Origin: a virus
Length of the DNA: 26,081 nt
Virus record (IMG/VR): IMGVR_UViG_3300033153_008361
Span: 64,001 to 90,081 of that record
Direction: 5' to 3' (one strand)
Below, piece by piece: positions 21,691 to 26,081 of this stretch; positions within the stretch are counted from its first letter, which is position 1; each line of letters starts with the position of its first letter. Both the position numbers and the translations under genes were made by a program. The notes below the pieces were generated by a model, which did no database searches, was not told the origin of the DNA, and was given only the letters and a program-made list of their open reading frames with translations.

Positions 21691-22881
21691 TTACACACCC
21701 TCGACATATGACCAGCCCCGTTCGGGCTTTTCATGCAAAGAAGAAACGGAAAGATAATTTTGATAAACGTCATCAAACCATTTTTGGAATTCCCATTGGA
21801 CATTTTTCATTAAGTAACGTTCCGCATGGGCCCGGATCTCGGCCGGGTCAAGGTCGCCAACACTTCGAGCCGCTTTGACCATATCATCTAACGTATTACA
21901 TAAAAACCCGGTCCGGCCGTGGATGACAGTCTCCGGGAACACTCCGAAGTTGGTTGTTATTACTGGAGTGCCACAAAGCTGAGCCTCAACATTAACCCCG
22001 CCAAAGGCTTCCAGGTATTGGGTTGGAACAAAGACAGCTTTAGCCTTTCCCATTAACTCAGCCCGGAGTTCCGGCCCTGCGAATCCCACATACTTACACC
22101 AAAATGGGAGAGATTTTAATGGTAGCTCAGGGTCTGTTTGTCCGGCTAGGAACAACTTTCCCCCGACATGACCGACTGTCTGAATAGCCCAACGAACACC
22201 CTTCCTCGGTATGATGCGGCCGATGAACAGGAAGTAATCTTCTTTGTTGGGCTCAAATGGAAAATGTTTTTCCTCGAAATAATTGGGGATGACCCGATCA
22301 TAAACCGCGCCATTAACACTTTTCCACGGGTCTGCACTTCCATAAGTGAAGTTCTGGAGATAGGAACTTTCAAAGGCTCGGAAGCTACAGTAAGAGCCCC
22401 GGTAGCCTATTCCAGGTTCGAGCGTCAAGTAAAGTCCGACAGCATCAGCTATGGGTTTTTGATACCGTCCCTGTGTCAGAAGCAAAAAGTCACTTGGTCG
22501 CTTTCGTTTATTGATGGCCTCACTAGCTTGTTTATAATACTTCACTGTGAGCGAGGTTCTAGGGGCATTAAAATCATGCCTGAATCCACCAGTGCGGTAG
22601 TCATAGCCAATACTAAATCGGTTATCACCATCTCCCCATTGGAAACGAATGTTGCTCAGGGTATGAGTCTCTATGAACTCAGTACACGGCGCGTCCGATC
22701 CTTCCGCGCCATACAAAAAGACCTCATGACCGAGGTCCAAAAGCATTTTGCTGAGTTTCACTATTTTCTGAGTGAAGGCACATCCCATGTATCGCTCGGA
22801 GACTGGAAGGTGAACCAACCCGAGCAGGTGGAAACGATATTGGCGTTTGACTTTGGTAGCGACAGGAATGTTGAATGTCAA
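21691..22881 (-). CDS. Glycosyltransferase, GT4-like (GT-B fold)
   Basis: 396 residues. It transfers a sugar from an activated donor; acceptor and sugar cannot be read from sequence. Seen: an N-terminal half with HLLGLVHLPVSERYMGCAFT and LLDLGHEVFLYGAEG (Rossmann strand and loop), then FLFIGRIIPRKGV (219-229, donor-binding Arg222 and Lys227) and a perfect EX7E motif EAFGGVNVE (E291, E299) followed by GTPVITTNFGVFPETV, all hallmarks of GT4-type retaining enzymes. Start is TTG 22881 overlapping the sulfotransferase stop as TTGA, with AAAGGAG 11 bases upstream; the next methionine is residue 32. Being in one run with a sulfotransferase and methyltransferase after a collagen-like fibre suggests it glycosylates a virion protein. 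Modification of DNA or host glycans is less likely but possible. Confidence 0.85.
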   Translation of the reverse strand: MTFNIPVATKVKRQYRFHLLGLVHLPVSERYMGCAFTQKIVKLSKMLLDLGHEVFLYGAEGSDAPCTEFIETHTLSNIRFQWGDGDNRFSIGYDYRTGGFRHDFNAPRTSLTVKYYKQASEAINKRKRPSDFLLLTQGRYQKPIADAVGLYLTLEPGIGYRGSYCSFRAFESSYLQNFTYGSADPWKSVNGAVYDRVIPNYFEEKHFPFEPNKEDYFLFIGRIIPRKGVRWAIQTVGHVGGKLFLAGQTDPELPLKSLPFWCKYVGFAGPELRAELMGKAKAVFVPTQYLEAFGGVNVEAQLCGTPVITTNFGVFPETVIHGRTGFLCNTLDDMVKAARSVGDLDPAEIRAHAERYLMKNVQWEFQKWFDDVYQNYLSVSSLHEKPERGWSYVEGV

Positions 22882-23408
22882 AGACCCATGAACTCCTTTA
22901 CGGCGCTGATAATGCGCCGTGCATACTCTTTTGCCAGATGACCACCATCCCCCGCGGCCGAGATTTGGCCCTTACGTTTCAGGCTTGCGGCCGTAAGCTC
23001 GGGTCGTCTAAATACACAAATAAGGTACACATCTCCAAGCAAAAAGTCAAGATAGGAACGGACTGTCAGGGCCATACGCGGGTCTTTGAACCCCACCAAA
23101 GGGTATTCTTCTGTCGGCATCATCAGAAGTTCATACATATCCTGTATCTCGGCTGAGCGTAACGCCCCAGCTGCAAGCATCGCCGCCTCTGCTGGTGGAT
23201 CATACCAAACCCCGCCGGCCGCCTGAATGATGTCCCTGTTAAATCGAGCACCACGGCCGTTCTCAGTCCGCCAGCCACCGGTCTTAAAATCGACCCCGGC
23301 CGATCGTAACGAGTCAGCCACGAAAGAAGTGCCCGACCGATGAGCCCCTAAGACAATGTAGGTCTTAGGCGACTCCAACGTGAAATCGTTCCCCGACAAA
23401 TATCCCAT
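22878..23408 (-). CDS. Sulfotransferase family protein
   Basis: 176 residues, compact for the family. Seen: the 5'-phosphosulfate loop YIVLGAHRSGTSFVADSL (17-34, GAHRSGTS); a KDPR motif (GFKDPRMALTVRSYLDFL, 106-123) common in bacterial sulfotransferases; and the 3'-phosphate-binding-type segment YLICVFRRPELTAASLKRK (128-146, RRP and following Ser142). These enzymes move sulfate from PAPS to hydroxyls of sugars or proteins. It overlaps the methyltransferase gene by 44 bases and the glycosyltransferase gene by 4, so the three are translated together. GGAAG lies nine bases before ATG 23408. The protein ends at MGL soon after the last helix, so C-terminal elements present in larger relatives are absent. 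Confidence 0.78.
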   Translation of the reverse strand: MGYLSGNDFTLESPKTYIVLGAHRSGTSFVADSLRSAGVDFKTGGWRTENGRGARFNRDIIQAAGGVWYDPPAEAAMLAAGALRSAEIQDMYELLMMPTEEYPLVGFKDPRMALTVRSYLDFLLGDVYLICVFRRPELTAASLKRKGQISAAGDGGHLAKEYARRIISAVKEFMGL

Positions 23409-24520: not shown

Positions 24521-26081
24521 TTAATCCACCGTATAGCTGAAAGTTACAGTAAGAGAATTCACAACGCCAGTTTTTGCAGTTGTTTTAAGCACGATCCAAG
24601 AATCAGCCGGAATAGTTGCGTCATTAAAACTGGTAAGATTCTGCCCTGTTGTTGTATTTGTAATTGCCACAGGAGATGACAAAATATCCGTTGCGCCACC
24701 ACCACCAGACCTGTCTGTGTTATGGTAGGGATCTATTGTAACTGATGGAGATGAACCTGTCACCACAGCCTGAATCTCTGTTATTGTTATAGCAACGTAG
24801 GTAAACCCCGCTGAAACATCTTCGCCAGAGGATGGTTTTTCAAGCGTTATTGAATATAGATATGACGCGCTCACGCCAGTGTCACCCTTGACGGTACTGT
24901 CAGCACCCGTATCGCCCTGGATGCCAGTGTCACCCTGATCGCCCTGGATGCCAGTGTCACCTTCACCAGTATCACCCTTTTGCGCCAAATAGTCCCAATA
25001 AGTTGTCCAGCTTCCGCCAGTGCCAGGTTCATCGGAAGCACTGGAAGTATGATCTAAGACACAAACATAGGTTGAGCCATCATTGGTGACAGTATCGTTT
25101 ACTTCGTAAGAAGTGGCTGTAAGCCACTGGCCTTTCCAGGGATAAGAAGTGCCAAACTCGGGGGCCATACTGATGTCTTCGCCATTCGAGAAAGATCCAG
25201 CACCAGTTACATACTCAACCCCAATATCCCAATTCGTTCCATTGTCAGTTAATGAAGTGATCTTGAAGCTAACAAAGTCATTATCAACTTCACTAAATAC
25301 CTTGAAATGATCGCTAACTGCAAACTCGCCTATTTGAGCAGCAAGATTAGCAGAGTTGCGGTCAGTTTCATGAATGTAAACAACCGTCACGCTGGCAGGC
25401 GTAGCATTGTTAAACCTGATCTCGCCCGTTCCGGCCGGGCCAGTTGTTGTTGTATTGAAGTCATAGGGCCAGGAATAGCCACCAGCCCCACCACCACCGC
25501 CTGTGCCAGAATCACCCTGGATACCCGTATCCCCCTGGATGCCTGTATCGCCTTCTCCAGTATCCCCCTGGTCGCCAGTGTCTCCCTTGACCGTGCTGTC
25601 AGCACCCGTATCCCCCTGGATGCCTGTATCGCCTTCTCCCGTGTCGCCCTGGATGCCGGTGTCGCCTTCTCCGGTGTCACCCTGAATACCCGTATCGCCA
25701 TCATCACCAGTATCGCCTTTGACGGTACTATCGGCCCCGGTGTCACCCTGGATACCAGTGTCACCTTCTCCGGTGTCACCCTGAATACCCGTATCGCCAT
25801 CATCACCAGTGTCACCCTTGACGGTACTGTCAGCACCCGTGTCGCCCTGGATGCCGGTGTCGCCTTCTCCGGTGTCACCCTGAATACCCGTATCACCCTG
25901 GTCGCCAGTGCCACCCTGAACACCGGTATCGCCATCGTCACCCGTATCACCTTGGATGCCGGTGTCGCCTTCTCCGGTGTCACCCTGAATACCCGTATCG
26001 CCATCATCACCAGTGTCACCCTTGACGGTACTGTCAGCACCCGTGTCGCCCTGGATGCCGGTATCGCCTTCTCCGGTGTCA
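24521..26081 (-). CDS. Collagen-like tail fibre protein (5' end outside the window)
   Basis: The frame is open from the right edge to TAA 24521 (519 residues seen). It has no ATG start in the window; a GTG at 25390 lies mid-protein and is not the real start. Order seen: Gly-X-Y repeats to about 25500 (units [15 protein letters not shown] and [12 protein letters not shown]); a Gly-rich hinge; a fibre domain [18 protein letters not shown] common in phage fibres; a chitin-binding-like module ([40 protein letters not shown]); a second short collagen stretch (24873-24981); and a beta-rich C-terminal domain ending [12 protein letters not shown]. Most differences between repeat copies are at third codon positions, confirming this frame. 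It probably forms a trimeric fibre shaft. The Gly-Asp-Thr repeats resemble glycosylated collagen-like proteins of Bacillus spores, which matters given the glycosyltransferase downstream. Confidence 0.88.
24873..24981 (-). repeat. Short second collagen-like repeat tract
   Basis: This tract encodes [19 protein letters not shown] followed by [16 protein letters not shown]. It is the same repeat family as the main tract but separated from it by about 170 codons of globular domains. It connects the chitin-binding-like module to the C-terminal domain. Confidence 0.8.
25002..25105 (-). repeat. Duplicated chitin-binding-like module, copy in the fibre gene
   Basis: This segment is homologous in DNA and protein to 19387-19480 in the decoration-like gene. 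Both encode [12 protein letters not shown] and a T(N)G..TYVC.LDHT core. The 17-base core GGCGGAAGCTGGACAAC is identical in both copies (25002-25018 and 19387-19403, minus strand). Confidence 0.7.
25500..26081 (-). repeat. Main collagen-like (Gly-Asp-Thr-Gly) tandem repeat tract, continuing past the right edge
   Basis: The tract consists of imperfect tandem repeats built from [22 protein letters not shown] and ADSTVKG blocks. The ADSTVKG block recurs near 25587, 25719, 25818 and 26022 (and near 24888 in the short tract), with a long-range period of roughly 100-200 bases. Copies differ mainly at third codon positions. Such tracts are prone to length change by recombination. Confidence 0.85.

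Follow-up and report, generated by a model that had tools for sequence, protein, structure and literature searches.

A candidate late self-glycosylation cassette beside a threonine-rich collagen-like fibre of a phage

What do a glycosyltransferase, a methyltransferase and a sulfotransferase-like protein act on when a phage encodes all three downstream of a collagen-like fibre? Many tailed phages have collagen-like fibres, whose folding without hydroxyproline and whose modification are standing questions. The locus considered here lies in a 26,081-nucleotide stretch of DNA (hereafter the window) that comprises bases 64001-90081 of the 90,081-bp virus record IMGVR_UViG_3300033153_008361. A first-pass annotation had proposed that this phage adds a methylated, sulfated glycan to the Thr residues of its own fibre. 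Our results moderately favor a model in which the phage glycosylates its own collagen Thr late in infection, by means of a cassette with a tailoring slot whose content varies among phages. The proposal of self-glycosylation at Thr drew support from a gene order conserved in a phage family that is not related, from co-occurrence with collagen and from the prevalence of Thr at the Y position of the Gly-X-Y triplets.

The window holds the C-terminal 519 amino acids of the fibre (24521-26081, minus strand), which match PF01391 (2e-10) and several PHROG tail-fibre families. The reading frame crosses the ends of the record and stays open when these are joined, for a total of ~1,604 amino acids (remainder at G000:C1:1-3254), and the whole fibre is present as a 1,499-amino-acid open frame within a near-identical sibling contig (L016). 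The earlier description of a Gly-Asp-Thr collagen-like fibre holds in that this triplet dominates, but the repeats are interrupted, non-collagen domains are present and the triplets are nearly proline-free. The 960 triplet residues include 174 Thr, 1 Pro, 3 Lys/Arg and 0 Tyr; tyrosine sulfation of the collagen is ruled out by the lack of Tyr, and glycosylation of hydroxylysine or hydroxyproline by the near lack of Lys and Pro. The fibre also carries a CBM_5_12-like stretch (2e-5), and a TYVC.LDHT...GGSWTTYW-like stretch, by eye very similar to the fibre's, occurs in the gene at 19068-19571 (minus strand), so that a carbohydrate-binding module may have been reused in both.

The glycosyltransferase (GT; 21691-22881, minus strand) is a GT4-type enzyme that matches PF00534 at 66.4 bits (curated cut-off 26.4; E 2.9e-18) and phrog_3408 at 3.2e-79, the latter a PHROG family with an unspecified glycosyltransferase target, and its EX7E catalytic motif is intact in the C-terminal domain (EAFGGVNVE). 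It is the sole PF00534 match in the whole record, in which a search for PF00535 (GtrB-like) gave no match. Phage glycosyltransferases are usually read, for example in pelagimyophages (PMC7029224), as modifying the host surface (O-antigen, capsule or glycolipid) against superinfection, and here the collagen neighbor would then be incidental. We consider this improbable, since the phage has a single GT and no GtrB-like partner, the gene lies on the late virion strand, and the associations with collagen and with Thr in Y described below would go unexplained; what speaks for it nonetheless is that relatives of the sulfotransferase-like protein are accompanied by GT2 genes and a nucleotide-sugar epimerase and not by collagen.

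The methyltransferase (MT; 23365-23991, minus strand) matches phrog_3603 (3.1e-46), a family labeled "unknown function" in PHROG. Motif I (D-I-G-G-G-P) is conserved in an alignment of 27 family members, which has 32 invariant columns. An AlphaFold2 model built from these 27 sequences (predicted local distance difference test score, pLDDT, 89.6) matches many PDB methyltransferases at E <= 1e-6, and the modeled fold identifies the MT as a class I S-adenosylmethionine methyltransferase. No single substrate class is favored, the fold matches comprising protein N-terminal methyltransferases plus small-molecule enzymes. Methylation of the Asp of Gly-Asp-Thr is unlikely, as X is often Ala or Pro in the collagens linked to these enzymes.

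Across viral contigs, a GT relative lies near nearly every MT relative, mostly adjacent to it, and the divergence of the two proteins is correlated (Mantel r 0.96, p <= 0.0005; 41 loci). In one contig MT and GT form one open frame (L027), and in another a 987-amino-acid phage protein (L018:5054-8017) combines a GT32-like domain, an FkbM methyltransferase and a C-terminal phrog_3603-type MT, and is followed by a GT. This co-inheritance and the fusions of MT to glycosyltransferases lend weight to the earlier claim of a methylated glycan and, by context, favor a sugar as the methyl acceptor, which we regard as somewhat the better bet for the MT.

The pair occurs in two orders. In the first, MT precedes GT, and the pair often adjoins head or connector genes and a fibre that is collagen-like or Gly-rich; in the second, GT precedes MT, and in the single case with scanned neighbors a terminase-like gene follows immediately downstream. 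A close parallel in layout is the cyanomyovirus ACG-2014f, in which gp015-gp019 encode collagen, a hypothetical protein, MT, GT and a 2-oxoglutarate (2OG)-Fe(II) oxygenase. The collagen-hypothetical-MT-GT order is the same as here, with identities of 43% (MT) and 40% (GT), but ACG-2014f has the oxygenase in place of a sulfotransferase-like gene. The annotations of gp015-gp019 read just collagen, glycosyltransferase and hypothetical, and we found no functional proposal for these genes. The oxygenase itself (gp019; L013:16085-16678), right behind collagen, MT and GT, might hydroxylate the fibre or the glycan on it. In S-CAM7 and S-CBWM1, a GT lies immediately behind collagen-bearing genes. What fills the slot that separates or flanks MT and GT differs among phages. 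In this phage it is the sulfotransferase-like gene; L037 and L039 have an additional GT4, accompanied or not by another methyltransferase, L053 has a methyltransferase and S-CAM7 a second GT4-like gene. Judged from these gene arrangements, the system looks like a core MT-GT pair with exchangeable tailoring enzymes.

If the pair serves collagen, how often do the two occur together? Collagen was scored as a PF01391 match above cut-off in contigs of at least 35 kb, and random contigs were drawn by two arbitrary short DNA words. Collagen was present in 12/14 contigs with GT or MT, and with the sibling left out in 11/13, compared with 7 of the 40 random contigs (Fisher p 2.3e-5 for 11/13 vs 7/40). 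By group, the contigs with MT before GT or with GT only, again without the sibling, all had collagen (5/5; p 6.5e-4), as did 6/8 with GT before MT; the linked contigs are partly related and non-independent within a lineage, which makes these p-values optimistic.

A second line of evidence concerns the acceptor. Were Thr in Y the substrate, it should be kept while X drifts, even in collagens that do not neighbor the enzymes. Thr was the top Y residue in all 22 of the other linked records with a measurable collagen (37-89% of Y positions), while the commonest X varied among Ala, Asp, Pro and Val. Collagens distant from the enzymes (G003, G019, G020, G028, G031 and others) likewise had Thr on top in Y. 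As controls we used 67 unlinked phage collagens, sampled by a DNA pattern of Gly at every third codon and filtered to remove non-collagen Gly-rich frames; Thr led in Y in 25 of them (linked vs control, Fisher 3.8e-8, again an optimistic value given that some of the linked records are related to one another). Taken together, these data make it fairly probable that the GT acts on collagen and, by a slightly smaller measure, that it acts on Thr. An alternative is that the main targets of the cassette are virion proteins of the capsid, connector or tail, and that the collagen fibre is a minor target at most. In mycobacteriophages, phage enzymes glycosylate the capsid (Freeman 2023, as cited in PMC11256854), and the pair adjoins head, connector or terminase genes in some relatives, but this alternative predicts neither the retention of Thr in Y across lineages nor the high co-occurrence with collagen, and we rate its chances as low. 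Some phage collagen-like frames (L253, L266, L281, L294 and L297) are approximately pure Gly-Ser-Ser or Gly-Thr-Ser, with Ser in Y; the L294 contig additionally encodes a phrog_3408 GT with one internal stop.

Several other observations weigh against a dedicated collagen-modifying cassette. The pair of the lineage in which GT precedes MT adjoins a terminase gene and not a fibre, in the single example with scanned neighbors. Collagen is common in phages without the GT, and phrog_3408 occurs in just 4/71 collagen contigs; divided by collagen type, it is found in 3/30 Thr-rich and 1/41 Thr-poor contigs, which is the right direction in numbers that are too small. Thr in Y is common in bacterial collagens generally (PMC8968730). 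Finally, PF01391 is found in 0/27 other contigs that carry the sulfotransferase-like gene, so that its link to collagen is limited to this phage and its sibling. The expectation that homologues of the enzymes would keep company with collagen was thus borne out for MT and GT, in the 11/13 contigs noted above, and failed for the sulfotransferase-like protein.

What, then, is this third protein? The compact product (ST, 176 amino acids; 22878-23408, minus strand) had no direct match in Pfam (up to E 0.1), PHROG or NCBIfam. It is ~30% identical to alphaproteobacterial plasmid proteins (best E 5e-5), two of which are members of PF13469 (Sulfotransfer_3), and it keeps the phosphosulfate-binding (PSB) loop HRSGTS and the KDPR and R-x-P...S motifs, with a P-loop that lacks the kinase lysine. 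Compact phage relatives of 172-191 amino acids found by profile search (L092-L097) end at the same position and keep the motifs; this shared length and end rule out a decayed fragment. The ST model (pLDDT 84.8) has P-loop kinase/sulfotransferase topology. Its top TM-scores (0.55-0.58) are to tyrosylprotein sulfotransferases and its best E-value (1.1e-2) is to an adenylate-kinase-related protein, none of the E-values being significant. On homology and motifs, the ST is a member of a genuine compact phage family, resembling sulfotransferases that use 3'-phosphoadenosine 5'-phosphosulfate (PAPS), for which sulfotransferase-like is the best name. In the same record, a PAPS-reductase-domain protein (PF01507, 2.7e-16) is encoded outside the window at G000:C1:14246-15256 (L009:14246-15256; minus strand), where it directly adjoins the large-terminase-like gene of the phage.

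The company kept by the ST family is informative. GT2 matches occur in 21/27 of its other contigs; in L094 the genes around the ST are GT-like, a nucleotide-sugar epimerase being close by, and in L096 a GT flanks it on either side. It joins the MT-GT pair in this phage and its sibling only. This gene neighborhood places the family in phage glycan operons, and for this reason the ST is still likely to be a carbohydrate sulfotransferase, with sulfation of the fibre glycan standing at about even odds. The earlier claim of a sulfated glycan is therefore weakly supported: a sulfotransferase-like phage family tied to glycosyltransferases exists, but the contigs of its other members lack collagen. 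Whether the ST acts on the same glycan as GT and MT is evenly balanced. To our knowledge, a sulfated glycan on a phage virion would be the first. The targets could also be split, with the GT acting on collagen Thr, the ST modifying a small molecule or a glycan of the host and the MT possibly acting on protein. The lack of a collagen link for the ST outside this lineage and the protein N-terminal methyltransferases among the MT fold matches fit such a split, which we consider unlikely, though a serious contender, given that the ST is coupled between MT and GT in a slot that holds further GT or methyltransferase genes in relatives and that two contigs have the MT in fusion with glycosyltransferases.

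The arrangement of the genes bears on whether they act as one unit. Transcription on the minus strand runs through the fibre, its partner, MT, ST, GT and two unassigned genes into the tail region. The junctions given by the first-pass annotation were confirmed in the sequence: partner and MT are separated by 7 bases, MT and ST overlap by 44, and ST and GT overlap by 4 (TTGA, combining a TTG start with a TGA stop). The ST, placed between MT and GT, is translationally coupled. The stated position among virion genes was likewise borne out, with a terminase-like gene, a weak major-head match, the fibre, the cassette and then a tape-measure-like protein (1,971 amino acids, at 9330-15245, downstream of the cassette) on the late strand. 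The cassette thus forms part of the late virion region, with head genes on one side and the tape-measure-like protein on the other, and fibre and enzymes reasonably, if not securely, constitute one late virion-modification unit. This position also counts against DNA modification, in which the GT would place a sugar on hypermodified bases, as T-even phages do when they glucosylate hydroxymethylcytosine. DNA-methyltransferase-like genes are indeed present elsewhere in the record, but they are far from the cassette, a search for the PF00303 base hydroxymethylase gave no match and the link to collagen would be left unexplained; we regard this possibility as very remote.

From the gene order, the enzyme families, the co-inheritance of MT and GT and the link to Thr in Y, we infer the following acceptor, sugar, order of steps, sulfation and role. 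During late virion assembly, the GT4 enzyme would move a host-made nucleotide sugar to Thr in Y of new, unfolded collagen chains, and the paired MT would then O-methylate that sugar. In this lineage, the extra ST would add sulfate from host PAPS, giving charge. In the simplest case, many of the ~174 Thr would each bear a single sugar or a very short glycan, because the record contains no other GT4 or GT2 match. The role that we rank first is stabilization of a triple helix that is nearly without proline, followed by a hydrophilic or charged coat on the fibre; stabilization would be a third possibility beside the shielding and receptor binding suggested by the first-pass annotation. Extra stabilization would presumably be required by a Gly-Asp-Thr collagen with so little proline, and Thr glycosylation stabilizes collagen (Bann 2000, as cited in PMC3368898). 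The broadest form of the model, in which a widespread phage cassette of GT, MT and exchangeable tailoring enzymes glycosylates Thr in Y in place of hydroxyproline, with a glycan that is both O-methylated and sulfated here, is tentative and on balance doubtful.

Several known systems are similar in part. In Clostridioides difficile, the gene directly upstream of bclA3 is sgtA, whose product attaches sugar to Thr in the collagen region (PMC7157674). Both loci have a GT gene adjoining a Gly-X-Thr collagen gene, with the Thr sugar shown there and predicted here. SgtA, however, is a GT-A enzyme with a tetratricopeptide repeat (TPR) domain that uses UDP-N-acetylglucosamine (UDP-GlcNAc), whereas the phage has a GT-B enzyme of the GT4 type with MT and ST; by analogy, the cassette would work like the SgtA system without being a member of it, the glycosyltransferase class being different. 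The collagen region of B. anthracis BclA is glycosylated, and its glycan ends in an O-methylated sugar, the 2-O-methyl sugar anthrose (PMC6222408). BclA is a bacterial spore protein served by a large host glycan pathway, in contrast to a compact phage cassette. We know of no sulfation of Bacillus anthracis BclA.

Mimivirus L230, a virus-encoded lysyl hydroxylase/glucosyltransferase, glycosylates the virus's own collagen (PMC9614988). Its acceptor is hydroxylysine and it has its own hydroxylase domain; the phage cassette has no hydroxylase and a collagen nearly free of Lys, and is not of the L230 type. Mycobacteriophages (Che8 and relatives; Freeman 2023, as cited in PMC11256854) also use phage GTs to glycosylate their own virion proteins, but the target is the capsid, and the sources consulted mention no collagen link or sulfotransferase. 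Glycosylation of spore collagen Thr and of mycobacteriophage virions are thus known separately, and a dedicated phage cassette for collagen would be new; the literature searched, with partial coverage, described neither this cassette nor a sulfotransferase for phage virions. Our analysis makes the question testable by naming the enzymes, predicting which residue is the acceptor and giving a signature across the survey, and it points to a possible function for phrog_3603 and phrog_3408, two PHROG families about which little has been described.

The remaining features of the region are minor. Downstream of the GT lie a late-operon gene of 191 amino acids (21113-21688, minus strand) without a significant family match and a further late gene of 396 amino acids (19923-21113, minus strand) without a family match. 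A promoter scan gave the shuffled expectation, and a terminator scan was slightly above expectation. The phage is probably temperate, because a tyrosine-type integrase match (phrog_1, 2e-42) is present at G000:C1:48742-49689 (L011:8742-9689). The fibre partner (173 amino acids; 23999-24520, minus strand) has a weak DUF4082-like similarity (PF13313, 1.6e-4, below the curated cut-off), which it shares with a tail-region protein at 2149-3165, also on the minus strand, that has an additional choice-of-anchor R similarity.

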